The notes beneath the pieces are model-generated. The model searched no databases, was not told the origin of the DNA, and saw nothing but the letters and a program-made list of their open reading frames with translations. A stretch of 28,789 nucleotides of DNA from positions 1-28,789 of the IMG/VR virus record IMGVR_UViG_3300009418_000079. One strand, 5' to 3'. Below are positions 6,164 to 28,595 of this stretch, one piece after another. How positions within the stretch are numbered: position 1 is the stretch's first letter; each line of letters opens with the position of its first letter. This DNA is from a virus. Position numbers and translations under genes: made by a program.

Positions 6164-8110
6164 TTAGTCTGACTCAGAGATGACCGGACGGGGGATTCCG
6201 TCCGCATCAGGTTTCTGTTCCAATTTTGGTGGGGACTGTCCCGTGGGCTTTGGTCCCGGTGTCGGGACATCCTGCCCAATCCCCATGGCCATCGCTTCCT
6301 GTATCCGTTTCGGGATTTCCTTGGTGCCTGAGGGCGGCGATCCACCGTTCGGAATCTCCAGCACCTCAAACAGCGTCCACGGGTCCATCAAGCCTTCCCG
6401 GTGCAACCGCAGATACATCATCTTCCGGGAGATCTGCGAGATGGACAGGAGGCTGTTCGGCGTAATCTGGAAGGTGAACTGCTTGTGATGCAGCTTCGCC
6501 CGCTTCGCCCGTGGGATATACATATCGTAGGCTGGGTCATACGCATCCCCATCTGCTTCCTTGCTATAGGCAGGGATCAGGGTGCCTGGGTCAAACTGGA
6601 AGTCCTCCATGTCGATGCCCTGGTCACCCAGCATGGAGATCCGCCGCTGCATCGTGTAGAACTGGAAGAAGTTGGTCTTGACCATCTCTCCCACATCACG
6701 CAAGAATACCTCCAGCAATCGGCCTTTCATCCGCAGGGTGGGGCTCAGGGCCTCCATCATCTGCTCGATACTGTCGGCTCCAGGAGCCTGTTTCAGCTGC
6801 GTCAGGGCCTGTAGGTTGGCCACACCCCCGTGGTAGTCCATCTCCGACACCATCATCTTCAAGAAATCGAAGACATAGGACGGGATGTTGGGCGGGGGCT
6901 CAAATTCAATGTTGCCCATCACCGGATTGTGCCGCACCTTGGTGCCGGGAATCCGCGTGTCCAGCCGGTTCCACAGCGACTCTGGCATGGCCCGTGCATC
7001 ACCCTTCAATCCAGGGCGCAGGGCCTTCCTGACCATATCCAGGATGCCATTCGCTGTCTCGTTCACCGCATCCTGCAGGGGCATCAGGTCCCGTGTGATT
7101 CCCACGCCCAGCAGGCCCCAGGGCCAGGGATCCAGGCGGAGCCGCGTAATCGGGAACATGCCGTGCCAGAAGGGGTTCGGCCCATCGAACAGAATGCAGT
7201 CATCCGTTGCAATGATCAGCCGCCCACGGGGGTAGAGCTTGTATTCATCGTCGTCAAACCGCTGACCGTTCGGTTTCTTTGATCCTGCTGGCTGGACCGT
7301 ATAGGACCACGATGTGTTTGGGTCCCCAATCGTGATGGGGCCCACCCCTGTGTGGAGCCGTCGATCCTTGATATACACATAATAAAGGTTAGTCGTTGCC
7401 ACTGCCGCCGAGACGTTCTTCGGGGTGGAGGACAGGAATCCTGCCGCCGGGGACATCAGCTGCTGCGCCCCTTTGGAGTTGCCCCAGGTGCGCGTGGGAA
7501 CGGCTCCCGCCCGTGAGGCCGAGATTCGATGGGCCTTGCCGGGGAACCGTGCCTGTAGCTCACCCACCGTCTTTGCGGTGCGGATAATGACCCCTTCCCA
7601 GTCCTGTATATCCCCATCCAGGGTCGGACGAATCGGGATGACATCCCGTGGGTCTCTGGGCGTCAACACGACCTCCCCGGTCCCACCACCTGCCGAGGCA
7701 TCCCAGTGCACCTCACAGTAGCCCGTCCCTGGGCCTGAGGCATACCGCAGCACGTTCGACAGCTGCAGATCGGCCTGGGTGTTGGTCCACCATGCCGTCA
7801 CCAACTTGTTCAACACCTCTGCCTGGGGCTGAAACCGGTCGTTCTGCGTCTTGAACCCAAACAGGGGATGAATGTCCGTGAGCGCGGCGACCTGCTGCAG
7901 CACGATATGCTTCGTGCGGTTGTCATACACCCCCGACAGGGTCGAGGGGCGCTGTGAATCGATCTGGTCACCCATGATGTAGGAGATCGCTTTCTCAATC
8001 TCCGCATACATGGGCTCTGACTGGAGGACTCGCTCCCCTTCGGTGCGAGCCGTCGTGATCCACTCCAGCATCGACTGCTCATACTTTTCGTTAGGTAGTG
8101 GAAAGTCCAT
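6164..8110 (-). CDS. Portal protein
   Basis: The protein has 648 residues, the size of a podovirus-like portal. It forms the dodecameric ring through which DNA enters and leaves the capsid. Portal-type features include an N-terminal helical region with DNRTKHIVLQQVAALTD, a wing-like part with TGYCEVHWD and a DPRDVIPIRP strand followed by DWEGVIIRTAKTVGELQARFPGK, a crown/stem part with PITRLRLDPWPWGLLG and DAVNETANGILDM, and a long helical C-terminus. It sits downstream of the terminase block and upstream of the scaffold, as expected. The ATG directly follows the stop of the zinc-ribbon gene (TAAATG). Confidence 0.9.
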   Translation of the reverse strand: MDFPLPNEKYEQSMLEWITTARTEGERVLQSEPMYAEIEKAISYIMGDQIDSQRPSTLSGVYDNRTKHIVLQQVAALTDIHPLFGFKTQNDRFQPQAEVLNKLVTAWWTNTQADLQLSNVLRYASGPGTGYCEVHWDASAGGGTGEVVLTPRDPRDVIPIRPTLDGDIQDWEGVIIRTAKTVGELQARFPGKAHRISASRAGAVPTRTWGNSKGAQQLMSPAAGFLSSTPKNVSAAVATTNLYYVYIKDRRLHTGVGPITIGDPNTSWSYTVQPAGSKKPNGQRFDDDEYKLYPRGRLIIATDDCILFDGPNPFWHGMFPITRLRLDPWPWGLLGVGITRDLMPLQDAVNETANGILDMVRKALRPGLKGDARAMPESLWNRLDTRIPGTKVRHNPVMGNIEFEPPPNIPSYVFDFLKMMVSEMDYHGGVANLQALTQLKQAPGADSIEQMMEALSPTLRMKGRLLEVFLRDVGEMVKTNFFQFYTMQRRISMLGDQGIDMEDFQFDPGTLIPAYSKEADGDAYDPAYDMYIPRAKRAKLHHKQFTFQITPNSLLSISQISRKMMYLRLHREGLMDPWTLFEVLEIPNGGSPPSGTKEIPKRIQEAMAMGIGQDVPTPGPKPTGQSPPKLEQKPDADGIPRPVISESD

Positions 8111-8899: not shown

Positions 8900-9652
8900 T
8901 CACGGGAACCACTGGTATTCGTCCCGACGCACGGCATCCCTGAACGCACTGAACCGAGACACGGGAATGGACACCACGCTGGGGTTCCCCTTCACGGTGC
9001 CCACGATGAAACACACAATCGCTTCCTGCTCCAACGAAATTACCGAGGAGCCGCTGGACCCTGGCCCTCCATCAACCTGCAGCAACATCGCATTTGTCCA
9101 GTTAATGTCACGGCTGGTCACCGGACGGTCCATGTTGAGCAAGCTCACCCGTCCGAAGAACAACTGTCGGCCCAACCCGACTGGAGCCGCGACATTCAGG
9201 ACTTCATCGCCCATCTTCACGAGCCCCACGTTGCCCAGAGGCATTGTAGGCCATTCTTCCTTGGTGTCCACGGACAGAATCGCAAAATCGTCACCACGGC
9301 TCTGATAGCCCGCCATCACGACCTCTGCCCTATGAAAGGTCTTGTCCTGTAGCTGATCAAACGAAATGTAGAAGGGAGACGAAGAGACGACCGCTTTCTT
9401 GTGGGTTTTATCGTCGTCTGCCACACAGTGTGACGCACTCACAAAGAGGTAGCCCTTCTCCCGCTTCTCAAACGCGGTAGCCGTACATGCCATATCCATC
9501 CCGCCCGAAGCGGTCTGCTTATAAAGGATTGCCGTCGCTGCATACGCCCGCTCTGAGACAGTCGTTAGTTCCTTCGCGTTAACCTCAAGAGGCCTTACTG
9601 GAGAGAACAGAATAGTCGTCAGCAATAGAGAGGTGAGGATGATTCGACGCAC
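8900..9652 (-). CDS. Secreted trypsin-like serine protease
   Basis: The product has 250 residues from a GTG at 9652. I prefer this start over the ATG at 9658 because AAGGAG is six bases away from the GTG but touches the ATG. Residues 1-26 form a signal peptide (MRRIILTSLLLTTILFS). The chymotrypsin-fold triad is visible: His75 in VSASHCV, Asp122 in DDFAIL and Ser200 in GGPGSSGSS. Cys56 and Cys76 sit where trypsin has its Cys42-Cys58 disulfide. This is an intact, exported peptidase encoded between terminase and ribbon-helix-helix genes. Targets could be host envelope or extracellular proteins. A capsid maturation role is less likely because of the signal peptide. Confidence 0.85.
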   Translation of the reverse strand: MRRIILTSLLLTTILFSPVRPLEVNAKELTTVSERAYAATAILYKQTASGGMDMACTATAFEKREKGYLFVSASHCVADDDKTHKKAVVSSSPFYISFDQLQDKTFHRAEVVMAGYQSRGDDFAILSVDTKEEWPTMPLGNVGLVKMGDEVLNVAAPVGLGRQLFFGRVSLLNMDRPVTSRDINWTNAMLLQVDGGPGSSGSSVISLEQEAIVCFIVGTVKGNPSVVSIPVSRFSAFRDAVRRDEYQWFP

Positions 9653-9663
9653 AAGCATCTCCT

Positions 9664-10506
9664 TTAGTGAAAGGCCTCCTCATCCCATTTGTCCATCATC
9701 TCCTGATATGACACAGCAGTGTTCTGCCACGTGGGCTTTCGAGAGGCCACTGCCTTCTCAGCTTCTTCCAGTTTTCCTGCAGCTTGCAAGCGCTTTCGTT
9801 CGGCTGAGGTATCAATACCGGCCAGCCATTCGTTGTCATGTGCAGCCCAATATGCCATCAGCATGGCCATGACACGGTCGTCATGCCGTCCTGACATCGC
9901 CTGTGCCTTCGACATATAGAGGTCCCCCTGGAAGTCTTCCAACTCATCCAGCAGGAACTCCGAGTGGATTGTCAGGTCATCGTTCACCAGGGCATGATGT
10001 CCCCTGGCAATGAGCTTCGGACGAGTCGATGGCGTCGTCCACCAGCCCAGCCGGGAAGTCTGGAGGTTCTTGGTCTTGTCGTAGATCTTCCAGACAAAGA
10101 GATGCCCATAGGCCATCCGGCTTCGCAGGTCGAACAGACAGGAGTCCCCAAACTCTCCGTTGCACTCCACGATGACCATGGCCTCTCCTTCCGCGCCATC
10201 TCCGTAGAGCCGTCCGACCAACGCCACCACAGGAGCCAGATCATGGGGACCATGGAAGTCGCTGGCGAACTCCGCTACCTGGGCATCAGGCCGCTGGTTA
10301 TCTCCCACGCGCACCACCTCGATCACCGACCGATCCGCGCCTTTGCCCCCGGCAGGGTCCACCCCCAGGACATACTCCGCTGTTGGCTCAGGGTCCTCAA
10401 AGACCAGCAGCCGTCCATTCCAGTAGTTCAGGTCATACTCCCCCGGATCTGGGAGGCCCTTGAACCCCCACCCCACCGGGACACGATCAAGAAATGAGTT
10501 GTTCAT
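9664..10506 (-). CDS. Large terminase, nuclease domain (split gene)
   Basis: The product has 280 residues from ATG at 10506 (a GTG at 10527 would add seven). It carries the RNase H-like nuclease of large terminases: Asp50 in YVLGVDPAGG, Glu114 in MVIVECNG, and Asp209/Asp210 in SGRHDDRVMA. These are the three metal-binding acidic positions that cut the concatemer. No P-loop is present. The ATPase half lies upstream as a separate gene (10671-11951) with a zinc-protein gene between them. The start overlaps the zinc-protein end by 20 bases and has no good ribosome-binding site, so translation is probably coupled. The alternative is an assembly frameshift, but two would be needed. Confidence 0.85.
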   Translation of the reverse strand: MNNSFLDRVPVGWGFKGLPDPGEYDLNYWNGRLLVFEDPEPTAEYVLGVDPAGGKGADRSVIEVVRVGDNQRPDAQVAEFASDFHGPHDLAPVVALVGRLYGDGAEGEAMVIVECNGEFGDSCLFDLRSRMAYGHLFVWKIYDKTKNLQTSRLGWWTTPSTRPKLIARGHHALVNDDLTIHSEFLLDELEDFQGDLYMSKAQAMSGRHDDRVMAMLMAYWAAHDNEWLAGIDTSAERKRLQAAGKLEEAEKAVASRKPTWQNTAVSYQEMMDKWDEEAFH

Positions 10507-10678
10507 TGATTTGTGGGAGGTCGTCACTTGTCAGGGCTATCTGCTCCCCGGTGCCACGACAGTCTGGGCAGGCCATCACAAAGCAGATACCCTGCATTTC
10601 TACTTCTTCTTCCCCTGCTCCTTCACAGATCGGGCAGGGAATCTTCTCTCGTGTCGGGAGCGGCAATGGCTCAGTCAT
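10487..10678 (-). CDS. CxxCxGxG zinc-finger small protein inside the terminase locus
   Basis: This is a 63-residue protein (ATG at 10678; a GTG at 10684 is also possible) whose start overlaps the ATPase stop in an ATGACTGA junction. It has two DnaJ-type half-sites, CPICEGAG and CPDCRGTG, giving CxxCxGxG twice about 24 residues apart, enough for one zinc site. The rest is acidic. Such domains bind proteins or nucleic acid. Its location exactly between the two terminase halves suggests it may bridge them or help them assemble; that is inference. Confidence 0.8.
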   Translation of the reverse strand: MTEPLPLPTREKIPCPICEGAGEEEVEMQGICFVMACPDCRGTGEQIALTSDDLPQINEQLIS

Positions 10679-11951
10679 GTTCACGTAGTCCTTCCTTGTC
10701 CAGCCCCGCCAGATACGCCTTCGGTTGGATCTCTACCAACCCTACCGGCCTCTTCAACCGCTGTCGGATGTCATGCAGCACCTCAAACGGGAAGACGGAC
10801 TGTCCAGTGTTCTGAAATGCCTCATTGGGGTCTGCACAATACTCCGCGAGGAAGGTGTGCAGCCGCCGTTTCTCCTTGGCCTCCGTTCGCGTCGTCTCCC
10901 ACCAGAACAACTGGTCCCGTGTCAACCGGATCACCTTCCCACACCACTGGGCCGACACATCCAACGCCCGTTCTGCGTGGGCTTTGGTCAAATCTGTGGG
11001 TTCCCAGCCCTCTGGAGCCCGTGCCACATACGTGCGGGACTCCCCATACCAGGGAATGAAGATAGGCACGACCCGACCGATGCCCCGACAGGCAACCAGC
11101 CACATATCGTGCCATTCATTGCCCCGTCCCCGCGCTGTCGACTCGAAAATCGCCAGGGTCCGGGGGTGACGGGGGATAGCAGGCATCAATGAGTCGTCAA
11201 TCTGCCCCGCATTCTCCCAGGTGGAGATTTCGGACAGGTGTGCCAGCGGAATGGTCTTCCCACGGGCCATTTGCCCCCGTTCCTGCCCCAACGTGGCCCC
11301 TCCCCGCACGGATTTCCCCGATTCCACCAGAATCAGGCTGTCTGTCCGGTCAAAATACAGCTGTGACTCCTTCTCCCGATACTTTTGCTCCGGTTGCATC
11401 CACCACGGGAGGTTATCGTAGATGCGTTCCAACATATTATAGAGGTAGGCCGACTGCGCCGGGACATCTGCGGCGATCAGGGCCGTCGTATTGCCATACA
11501 GGAACGCACGATGGGCTAACATGGCCTCACTCAGCGTTGATGCGCCTAATTGTCGGGCCTTCAGGATAGCCACCAGGATGCCATCCAGGCGTTCCCGGCT
11601 ATTACACTGCTCTTCAATCCTTCCGATCCGCTCTAAAATGATGGATTGGCTCTCAAAGAGGGGAAAAAGCGGGGTAGACGTCGTATCCTTCGTCTTGATC
11701 AGGGCGTATCGAGTGGCCCAATACTCAAAAGAGGCCTTGGAGAGCACCAGTTCATTGAGAATCCACCGTTCCTCTTCTGGCTTCAGTGGGCGGAGCATGG
11801 CTCCGCCCTCCTCTTGGAGAGGAGCTAATTGTGCCATCCGCTTCCGTGCATCCTCCTGGGGCGTGGGCTTCGGGTCGAACGACGGATCGGCCACACGGAT
11901 CGCATCGACAATCTTGGCCAGACGTTTCTCCGAGACCAGTGGGCTATACAT
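10671..11951 (-). CDS. Large terminase, ATPase domain (split gene)
   Basis: The product has 426 residues from the ATG at 11951, chosen because it overlaps the upstream HTH stop by eight bases; the frame is open to 12032. It is the packaging motor ATPase. The Walker A variant is KARQLGAST (residues 131-139), as in terminases with an RQxGxST loop. Walker B is IPLAHLSEIS with catalytic Glu241. The coupling motif is FESTARGRGN. It ends soon after FLAEYCADPNEAFQ and SVFPFEVL, where single-chain terminases would continue into the nuclease domain. That domain is instead encoded at 9664-10506. Confidence 0.88.
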   Translation of the reverse strand: MYSPLVSEKRLAKIVDAIRVADPSFDPKPTPQEDARKRMAQLAPLQEEGGAMLRPLKPEEERWILNELVLSKASFEYWATRYALIKTKDTTSTPLFPLFESQSIILERIGRIEEQCNSRERLDGILVAILKARQLGASTLSEAMLAHRAFLYGNTTALIAADVPAQSAYLYNMLERIYDNLPWWMQPEQKYREKESQLYFDRTDSLILVESGKSVRGGATLGQERGQMARGKTIPLAHLSEISTWENAGQIDDSLMPAIPRHPRTLAIFESTARGRGNEWHDMWLVACRGIGRVVPIFIPWYGESRTYVARAPEGWEPTDLTKAHAERALDVSAQWCGKVIRLTRDQLFWWETTRTEAKEKRRLHTFLAEYCADPNEAFQNTGQSVFPFEVLHDIRQRLKRPVGLVEIQPKAYLAGLDKEGLREHD

Positions 11952-12105
11952 GACCCCCCGCTTCCCGCCACAACGCCAGATAGTAATAGATGGTCCGCTC
12001 TGAGACCCCGAAACGCACCGCGAGATGAGCAATCGTCACAGGTTCCTCCGCCTGTCGTAACGCCACCAGACGTTTAATCTGTGTCCGTGTCAATTTCTTC
12101 GGCAT
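11944..12105 (-). CDS. Helix-turn-helix microprotein (possible terminase small-subunit DNA binder)
   Basis: The protein has 53 residues and begins MPKKLTRTQIKRLVALRQ. A helix-turn-helix follows (TIAHLAVRFGVSERTIYYYL, residues 24-43), of the type found in Hin-like invertases and in small terminase subunits. Its stop overlaps the ATPase ATG (ATGTATAG). Its start lies 32 bases inside the end of the 219-residue gene. It could be the DNA-recognition part of a small terminase or a regulator. Being 53 residues long, it is easy to miss by automated calling. Confidence 0.65.
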   Translation of the reverse strand: MPKKLTRTQIKRLVALRQAEEPVTIAHLAVRFGVSERTIYYYLALWREAGGHV

Positions 12106-25886: not shown

Positions 25887-28595
25887 ATGGCAGGACTCAA
25901 GCTCCCAGACGGCCCGCAATGTCGGGGCTGTATCCTGCAGCGGTCAGGTCGAGGATTCCTCACCATCGACGGGCAAGGCACCAACGGGGTGATGCTCATT
26001 GGTGAGGCCCTAGGATTCAATGAAGCACTCACCGGGAAGCCCTTCGTTGGACCCGCTGGATTCCTCCTCCGCAAAGTCCTGAAACGACATGTCAAAGCAG
26101 AGCGTGATGACTTCTGGATTGCGAATGTCCTCTTCTGCCGTCCACCAGGAAACAAGCTGCAAGATACCAGCTACAAATACGAAGCGATCAATCAGTGCCG
26201 TCCACATCTGGACGAGGCACTCAACCAACATCGTCCGAAGGCCATCGTGGCCCTGGGAGACATCGCTATGGAGCGTCTCCTGGGACGGCGAGGCATTGAG
26301 CAGTGCCAGAACTATGCCTTCTGGTCTGATGAATACAGTACCTGGGTGGTACCAGCACTCCACCCCTCTTTCATTCAACGAGGGAACAACAAGTATCAGC
26401 CCATCCTGGGCCTGGCCATCAAGAAGGCCATTGCTATCGCTGAGCATGGCTACGCCCACGAAGTCCCCACCACGATCCACCATCCCACCAGTTCAGAGGT
26501 AGCGGCCTGGGTAGCTGGGTACAAGGCTGCCTTGCGACAAGACCCCGCTACCCCTCTCGCCTTCGACATTGAAACCAACTACAAGGGAGCCAGAGATGAG
26601 AGCAAGCTGAAGCAGGACCAGGACCCCAGCTTTGACATCCTCCAGATTAGCTTTGCCTATGGTCCAGATGAAGGGATTAGTATGGAGTGGTGCGCGTCCC
26701 TGAAGCCTGCCATTCAGGAAGCCCTGGGTACGATGGGCACGAAGATTGTCTGGAATCGGTCGTATGATGTGCCCCGTATCCTTGCCAATGGTGTGCCTAT
26801 CAGGGGGGACATCCGGGACTCCATGATTGCGTGGCATGCCCTCCAGTCTGACCTGAGCAAGGGCCTGGGCTTTGTCACACCCCTCATCCCTGGCAATGAG
26901 CGGGTCCCCATGTGGAAGGACCAGTCCAATGATGATGGTGGCTGGTTCTACTCGGCCATGGACTCTGTCATGCTCTGGCGAAACGACCGGGGCATCATGC
27001 ACAGCCTGAAACAGGAGGGCATCCTCACCTTCTACCAGCAATACGTTGAGCAGGTCCGTCCTGTCCTCGATGACATGGAAGGGGCAGGGGTGTTGGTTGA
27101 CACTGAGGAACAGCACCGGCTCGTCTCCACCATGGAGCAGGAAATCGATGTGTTGGAAGAGTCCATGCAAACCCTCGTCCCTGACCAGCTCAAGGACCTC
27201 CACCCCAAGAAAGGCTACAAGCGAGATCCTGAAGACACTGTTGGCATGCGGCAGATCCTGGTGCCCAACCAGACATGGACTGTCTGTCCCGTCTGCCAGC
27301 TGAAGAACCCCCCCACGGCTCACTTCAAACGCTATGTCGCCAAGCGCTCCCTGCACAAGAACACAGCCTGCTCCGGGATGGAGGCGGTGCCTGTCAAAGG
27401 AGACGAGCGACGGTGGGCGACAGTGCTGCCCTTCAAACCCAGCCCCGTGCAACTCATCCGGTATGCGGTGAGCAAGGGCTACAGGACCCGTACGAATTAC
27501 AAGACGGGGCGGGCTACCATGAACGAGGAGACCATTGAGAAGCTGCTCAAGAAGCACCCGAACGAACCGCTCTTCCCACTGGTGCTGTCACACCGGAGTC
27601 TCCAGAAGCTCTATGGCCTGTATGGACCAGGGGGGCTGCTCATTAGCCCAGATGGACGAGTGCACACGCACTTCTCAGACAACCCCTCGACGTTCCGATT
27701 CGCCTCCTACGGACCAAACATGCAGAACATCCCGAGGGAGTCGGGGATCCGGGACCTCTTCGTCGCAGCCCCCGGCCACACCCTGGGAGCACGGGACTTC
27801 TCCGGGATTGAAGCCGTCCTCGTAGGCTACTTCGCTGGAGATAAGCACTATACGCGGCTAGCCAAGATGGGGGTACATGATTACTTCAATGCCCACATTG
27901 CTCATGCACAGGGAGCACTGCAGGAGAAGGACCTCCCCAACCTGGCGTGGTCTGACACAGACCTGGCTGCCTACCTGCAGGACCTGAAGCGTCAATTAGG
28001 AGACAGCCGAGCCGTCGCTAAGATGGGGGTGCATATGTCGAACTACATCGGCAGTCCCATTCGGATGTTTCAACAGGCTCCTGCACTCTTCAAGACTGTA
28101 GCAGGGGCTGAAAAGGTGCAGCGGCTCTACTTTGAGGTGTTCCCCCTGATCCGCACGTGGCAGCATCACACCTGTGATCTGGCCGAGAAGCAGGGCTACA
28201 TCCGCAGTCCCTACGGGGTGCCGCACCGGTTCTATCAGGTCTACAACTACAAGAAAGACCCGGACACAGGAGAGTGGACCAAGGTCCTGGGTGATGATGC
28301 CAAGCGCTGCGTGGCCTACAACCCACAGCACACAGCAGCCGTCATCATGCGCCGAGCACTCTGGCTGCTGGGCCAGCATGCTGACATCCGCCCCTATCTC
28401 CGGTTAACTATCCATGATGAGCTGCTCTGGGAATGCCCCACAGAGATGCATGACCGTGTAGACGCAACGATTCAGCACATCATGGAAGCACCACAACCTG
28501 AGCTACCCCTGGATCCAGACTGGCAGATGGGGCGTTGGCTCACTATCCAGACGGAGGGAAAACATGGGACACGTTGGGGCAGTATGCTACACTAA
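25887..28595 (+). CDS. Uracil-DNA glycosylase / 3'-5' exonuclease / family A DNA polymerase fusion
   Basis: This is a 902-residue replicative DNA polymerase. Residues 1-165 form a family-4-like uracil-DNA glycosylase: GEALGFNEALTGKPFVGPAG, VLFCRPPGNK, IVALGD, and HPS at 159-161, with Cys12, Cys15, Cys84 and Cys104 placed for an Fe-S cluster. Residues 220-370 are a 3'-5' exonuclease: Asp227/Glu229 (DIE), Asn290/Asp294 and Tyr355/Asp359. A CxxC...H...C insert (Cys467, Cys470, His490, Cys495) precedes the polymerase. Motif A is DFSGIE (637-642), motif B RAVAKMGVHMSNYIG (708-722), motif C HDE (843-845). His716 occupies the motif B position that is Phe762 in E. coli Pol I. UDG-Pol fusions are known in some phages, for example SPO1. 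The ribosome-binding site is separated by a hairpin. Confidence 0.92.
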   Translation: MAGLKLPDGPQCRGCILQRSGRGFLTIDGQGTNGVMLIGEALGFNEALTGKPFVGPAGFLLRKVLKRHVKAERDDFWIANVLFCRPPGNKLQDTSYKYEAINQCRPHLDEALNQHRPKAIVALGDIAMERLLGRRGIEQCQNYAFWSDEYSTWVVPALHPSFIQRGNNKYQPILGLAIKKAIAIAEHGYAHEVPTTIHHPTSSEVAAWVAGYKAALRQDPATPLAFDIETNYKGARDESKLKQDQDPSFDILQISFAYGPDEGISMEWCASLKPAIQEALGTMGTKIVWNRSYDVPRILANGVPIRGDIRDSMIAWHALQSDLSKGLGFVTPLIPGNERVPMWKDQSNDDGGWFYSAMDSVMLWRNDRGIMHSLKQEGILTFYQQYVEQVRPVLDDMEGAGVLVDTEEQHRLVSTMEQEIDVLEESMQTLVPDQLKDLHPKKGYKRDPEDTVGMRQILVPNQTWTVCPVCQLKNPPTAHFKRYVAKRSLHKNTACSGMEAVPVKGDERRWATVLPFKPSPVQLIRYAVSKGYRTRTNYKTGRATMNEETIEKLLKKHPNEPLFPLVLSHRSLQKLYGLYGPGGLLISPDGRVHTHFSDNPSTFRFASYGPNMQNIPRESGIRDLFVAAPGHTLGARDFSGIEAVLVGYFAGDKHYTRLAKMGVHDYFNAHIAHAQGALQEKDLPNLAWSDTDLAAYLQDLKRQLGDSRAVAKMGVHMSNYIGSPIRMFQQAPALFKTVAGAEKVQRLYFEVFPLIRTWQHHTCDLAEKQGYIRSPYGVPHRFYQVYNYKKDPDTGEWTKVLGDDAKRCVAYNPQHTAAVIMRRALWLLGQHADIRPYLRLTIHDELLWECPTEMHDRVDATIQHIMEAPQPELPLDPDWQMGRWLTIQTEGKHGTRWGSMLH

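Follow-up and report, generated by a model that had tools for sequence, protein, structure and literature searches.

In models of T4-type packaging motors, the hinge passes the force of the ATPase on to the domain that grips the DNA. When T4 gp17 is split at the linker, the ATPase and nuclease activities are kept and translocation is lost (PMC3012670, PMC9958956), and the domains of gp17 meet in an interface with more than 1000 square angstroms buried (PMC3012670). A natural split is known in most Arthrobacter phages of cluster AY, in which the large terminase (TerL) is divided into ATPase and nuclease genes, as mentioned without analysis, in one sentence each, in two reports (PMC11920828, PMC12820723). 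The first-pass annotation of the locus described here, which considered its packaging motor unusual, thus overstated the rarity. In the annotation of the AY phage BillyTP, the ATPase is encoded at 600-1679 and the nuclease at 1663-2259. Moreover, the NrdA of phage Aeh1 and the T4 topoisomerase are enzymes split by a homing endonuclease whose two chains reassemble (PMC2988022). One published account describes the herpesvirus terminase as having three subunits (PMC6466031).

In this work, a terminase locus of an uncultivated phage was analysed in a window of 28,789 bases (IMG/VR virus record IMGVR_UViG_3300009418_000079, positions 1 to 28,789). The locus shares with T4 gp17 the ATPase and RNase H nuclease folds, the catalytic residues and their order; among PDB entries, T4 gp17 matches the ATPase best, and T4 gp17 and RB49 gp17 match the nuclease best. 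However, the T4 protein is one chain with a covalent hinge, whereas the TerL encoded in the window is broken in that hinge. The AY phages BillyTP and BlueShadow also carry consecutive overlapping ATPase and nuclease genes, in this order and near the small terminase (TerS) and portal genes, but they have no gene between the halves and the window has one. The split TerL of cluster AY probably works alike, and family kinship with the window was not detectable by profile comparison (E 0.11 and 0.011). NrdA and the T4 topoisomerase are likewise phage enzymes split into two chains; there, however, the splitting was done by a homing endonuclease, and the slot of the window is occupied by a zinc protein. 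By E-value, the best match of the ATPase among isolates is the TerL of Tunturiibacter phage Tunturi_1 (30% identity), which is also matched by the nuclease but is a single chain of 723 aa. Each of the catalogued phage records matching the ATPase or the nuclease whose annotation was inspected has one gene of single-chain TerL length. The nuclease fold also matches herpesvirus pUL15 (Z 14.9), although in pUL15 the ATPase and nuclease share one chain.

Gene layout and identity of the two halves

Table 1. Features of the terminase region in the window
Feature	Positions	Strand	Remarks
Terminase large-subunit ATPase, stand-alone chain, 426 aa	10671..11951	-	ATG 11951, stop 10671
Zinc protein, 63 aa, two CxxCxGxG motifs, between the motor genes	10487..10678	-	ATG 10678, stop 10487
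Terminase large-subunit nuclease (RNase H fold), stand-alone chain, 280 aa	9664..10506	-	ATG 10506, stop 9664
8-nt overlap, ATPase stop and zinc gene start	10671..10678	-	
20-nt overlap, zinc gene end and nuclease start	10487..10506	-	
GGAAGGA about 10 nt upstream of the zinc gene ATG	10689-10695	-	putative ribosome site
Helix-turn-helix ORF, 53 aa, overlapping the ATPase start by 8 nt	11944..12105	-	
Candidate small terminase, 219 aa	12074..12733	-	weak Sf6 TerS match, E=0.033
Trypsin-like protease gene	8900-9658	-	PF13365, 6e-12
Portal protein (P22 type), downstream on the same strand	6164..8110	-	PF16510, 9.9e-9

The minus strand encodes, in the order of transcription, the candidate TerS, the helix-turn-helix ORF, the ATPase, the zinc protein, the nuclease, the protease, two small ORFs and the portal protein. 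The ATPase, zinc and nuclease genes start in three different frames, and the overlap lengths reported in the first-pass annotation were obtained again from the ORF coordinates. The candidate small terminase contains a CPECGGRG motif resembling half of the motif of the zinc protein. The protease, encoded between the nuclease and portal genes, has a signal-peptide-like start and H-D-S residues, and is present in one related locus (L003) and absent in another (L005). Elsewhere in the window, 25887-28595 (+) encodes a 902-aa protein in which an N-terminal uracil-DNA glycosylase (PF03167, 5e-21) is fused to a family A DNA polymerase (PF00476, 5e-29).

By sequence and predicted fold, both motor ORFs are halves of a large terminase. 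The ATPase carries the Walker A motif (K131-ARQLGAST), Glu241 and the sequence FESTARGRGN at 269-278, and the nuclease carries the acidic residues D50, E114 and D209-D210, so that all of the catalytic motifs listed in the first-pass annotation were found in place. Alignments of 36 rows show no variation at K131, E241, D50, E114, D209 and D210. The PHROG terminase-large-subunit profile matches the ATPase at 1.3e-11 and the nuclease at 3.7e-7. Profiles built from relatives and compared with PDB sequences gave T4 gp17 for the ATPase (8.6e-9), and RB49 gp17 (1e-18) and T4 gp17 (1.8e-13) for the nuclease. The AlphaFold model of the ATPase (pLDDT 89) aligns its residues 33-385 on gp17 72-360 (Z 22.2 over 275 residues), and that of the nuclease (pLDDT 85) its residues 26-229 on gp17 376-561 (Z 21.3 over 183 residues). 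Two of the features that define a TerL are therefore present, namely an ASCE P-loop ATPase (Walker A, catalytic Glu, coupling motif) and an RNase H-fold nuclease with an acidic triad. Another, ATPase and nuclease in one polypeptide, is absent; they are two ORFs in different frames with a third gene between them. Of the neighbours expected for a TerL, the portal gene was recognised and the TerS gene is a candidate with a weak match (E 0.033).

Position, recurrence and history of the split

By aligning the predicted models to gp17, the chain break was mapped between T4 residues about 360 and about 376, which is the flexible inter-domain hinge, because the ATPase model aligns up to residue 360 and the nuclease model from residue 376. 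Counted from the last conserved position of the ATPase to the first of the nuclease, the linker has 39 residues on the ATPase side and 44 on the nuclease side. The linker total has a median of 78 in split and 60 in fused homologues, and is 60-116 in the fused members of the large clade of the window. These totals are similar in both states, and therefore the linker was cut, not lost. In split relatives without an insert, the spacing between stop and start ranges from -20 to +16 nt and the relative frames 0, 1 and 2 all occur, which fits re-initiation; programmed frameshifting was rejected, as the frames vary.

The same three genes were found in contigs from other samples (loci of our survey are numbered with L). 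L002 and L004/L009 are identical to the window in the compared parts, and three-gene junctions also occur in L003 (92% identity) and in L010 (75%, in the ATPase), the latter with different overlap lengths. Between the window and L003, dN/dS was 0.084 for the ATPase, 0.053 for the nuclease and 0.175 for the zinc gene, low values as for translated and selected genes. With junctions recurring across samples and such low dN/dS, the earlier description of an operon of overlapping genes that encodes ATPase and nuclease apart, and not of a simple frameshift, holds. The split is genuine and old, and no artefact.

Profile searches of viral contigs yielded 162 loci with both domains, represented by 106 loci at less than about 90% identity, of which 61 were called split and 45 fused. 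L127 was then counted as fused because its apparent frameshift lies inside a conserved ATPase motif, leaving 60 of 106 split. In L127 (3650-3850), a TerL of the fused clade, an apparent extra base (CCC TAG C) in this motif is a sequencing error or a frameshift site. Conserved splitting in relatives, proposed in the first-pass annotation as a check, is borne out by these 60 representatives, the same zinc gene being present in L002/L009, L003 and L010; one ORF with the zinc motif inside it occurred in none of the relatives found.

The window was placed in a clade of 66 rows (SH-aLRT 99) that is mostly split. A fused clade (L029, L075, L083, L085, L088, L125, L127, L129) is nested inside it with strong support, which suggests re-fusion. 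A second and distant split clade of eight rows (L132, L139, L142, L152, L169, L172, L180, L194) lies beside fused relatives. Its ATPase has about 300 aa and its nuclease about 225 aa, and among catalogued relatives the single-chain TerL of podovirus ct52p938 comes closest (51% identity). At least five changes of state are needed on both trees, and starred branches force five on the first and three on the second, in which L127 is scored as fused; both trees were made quickly and have some long branches. The direction of the changes between split and fused states is an inference from these trees, and re-fusion is probable.

Eighteen other contigs of the family (53-76 kb) were searched whole, and each has a single region matching the ATPase and a single nuclease gene, although in L087 that region is two pieces around an insert and one of the 18 contigs has a 117-base edge match. 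No additional terminase matching phrog_2 was found in these 18 contigs. The distances of ATPase and nuclease correlate with Pearson coefficients of 0.85 in the split set and 0.89 in the fused set; the correlation is thus similar in both, and swapping of nucleases between lineages, of which there is no sign, was rejected. Rejoining by a split intein was also rejected, as no intein motif was seen by eye at the ATPase C-terminus or the nuclease N-terminus. Some relatives do have intein-like inserts in the TerL ATPase, L005 (3-347), L026 and L028 at the GA/ST site of Walker A and L087 close to the C-terminus of the ATPase (model positions about 370); the window has none. One scan of bacterial genome contigs for prophage relatives gave zero confirmed matches, so no host is proposed.

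The junction slot and the zinc protein

The junction between the ATPase and nuclease genes behaves as an insertion slot for different small genes. In a census with heuristic start choice, in which the slot ORFs of L020, L073, L087 and L114 are uncertain, 33 of the 61 called-split representatives have no gene between the halves and 28 were scored with an insert (L127 wrongly among them). The three-subunit packaging motor suggested in the first-pass annotation does not agree with these empty slots, nor with the unrelated genes in the others. Within the 12-row clade of the window, the zinc gene is found in the window, L003 and L010, and the slot is empty in L012, L014, L015 and L019; the remaining slots hold an HExxH protein (L011), Cys-rich proteins (L005, L046), an HNH-like protein (L016) and a 95-aa ORF (L073). 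Among all slots, HNH proteins occur in L113 (PF13392, 7.9e-13) and probably L016 (HNH-like by eye), a DNA methyltransferase in L031 (PF01555, 2.5e-22), a methyltransferase-domain protein in L116, HExxH proteins in L011 and L074, and small, mutually unrelated Cys-rich proteins in L005, L046, L069, L108/L109 and L114. The slot of L108 also encodes a 703-aa protein. Apparent slots of 1.8 to 3.7 kb were seen in L081, L082, L071, L108, L109, L114, L117 and L118, some of which encode proteins of 703-981 aa (DUF7178 in L108). The slot protein of L020 (4869-5261) has a CCxxHDxxYW motif and weak similarity to phospholipase A2 (E 0.002). Many slot genes overlap both neighbours by 4 nt or 1 nt (ATGA or TAATG), as in L010, L023, L030, L031, L069, L074 and L077. 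Small metal-binding proteins account for 5 of 21 slot ORFs, against 21 of 251 in the background (Fisher p=0.04); the comparison is rough, and the slot set includes two near-copies.

The zinc ORF contains two CxxCxGxG motifs, both complete, and its score for the DnaJ domain (PF00684) is 26.2 bits versus a Pfam gathering cut-off of 32.7. Of the earlier designation as a DnaJ-type zinc protein, the motif therefore stands and the domain membership does not: the protein was rejected as a DnaJ member, with a score below the cut-off and two motif repeats instead of four. It was rejected as an anti-TRAP as well, again below the Pfam cut-off. Both CxxCxG motifs are retained in three contigs 43-68% identical, and the zinc gene is under purifying selection. 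It nevertheless evolves faster than the motor genes (68% versus 91-92% identity to L003). In our scan, the family was found only in the lineage of the window (window, L002/L009, L003, L010) and always in the slot, and sister lineages with the same split are without a CxxCxGxG gene. We infer that the zinc protein is most plausibly the cargo of a slot with coupled translation and not a required third motor subunit. The split relatives with empty or unrelated slots speak against a required subunit, but not against a lineage-specific helper.

A candidate two-chain packaging motor

We hypothesize, with a probability of roughly 0.78, that the locus encodes a two-chain large terminase, known here from its genes and predicted folds, in which TerL is cut at the hinge, the two chains are made together and assemble non-covalently, and the slot gene is accessory cargo. 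The reading that it makes one chain after all, by a sequencing or assembly frameshift or by programmed frameshifting, is hardly credible. L127 does show such a pattern, but the window, L002, L003, L009 and L010 are all split at 75-100% identity, the ATPase match reaches the end of the model except in L127 and L169 (where it ends early), the frames vary among relatives, and a whole selected gene separates the halves. A frameshift artefact was thus rejected for the window on recurrence, frames and dN/dS, the pattern being met in L127. The origin of the split is a separate matter. An HNH or other homing gene may have broken TerL at the hinge, the present slot genes being replacements, and this would be compatible with the two-chain terminase, since it concerns origin only. 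HNH-type slot genes in L113 (PF13392) and probably L016, and the precedent of homing endonucleases, which split the T4 topoisomerase gene and the nrdA gene in phage Aeh1 (PMC2988022), favour such a history. However, HNH-like genes fill only 2 of 28 slots, many splits are empty, most slot genes look like ordinary cargo, and an endonuclease gene at the split site is absent from the slot of the window, so that we regard this origin as unlikely.

Less probable still is a motor of three subunits, in which an obligatory zinc protein holds ATPase and nuclease together in place of the covalent hinge. The conserved position of the zinc gene, its tight overlap with both neighbours, the kept CxxCxG motifs and the purifying selection are in line with it, as are the need of T4 for its linker and, weakly, the mild over-representation of metal-binding proteins among other slot products (p=0.04). 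On the other hand, L012, L014, L015 and L019 of the same 12-row clade are split without a slot gene, others carry unrelated genes, and the zinc gene changes faster than the motor genes. It is similarly doubtful that, in some lineages, a small metal-binding slot protein (here CxxCxGxG) is a removable coupler in place of the hinge, with the T4-type motor of the clade working without a covalent link.

In the two-chain terminase that we favour, a single TerL polypeptide would have been cut between the ATPase and the nuclease/translocation domains, with folds, active sites and the usual amount of linker retained. As the overlaps suggest, ribosomes ending the ATPase gene would re-initiate first on the slot gene and next on that of the nuclease, and coupled translation across the stop/start overlaps may yield roughly matched amounts of the chains. 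The two chains would dock via a gp17-like domain interface and assemble non-covalently on the portal, where the assembled motor would package and cut DNA. The CxxCxGxG protein would be the slot gene product of the window lineage and a selected accessory. Since T4 gp17 split at its linker loses translocation, the two-chain motor must differ from that of T4 somehow, and the hinge may be substituted by a stronger docking interface, by retained linker tails or by coupling supplied by the slot protein. In these phages, the motor appears to work without a covalent link, or with a substitute for it.

Since the AY phages were already reported as split, the kind of arrangement is known; what is described here is a split at the hinge that is widespread, has evolved repeatedly and has a slot for genes at the junction. 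With a large natural clade cut at the T4 hinge, and at least one distant split clade besides, the need for the covalent link and its replacement becomes directly testable. Moreover, the probable re-fusions and the junction slot form a natural series in which the separation and rejoining of motor domains can be followed.
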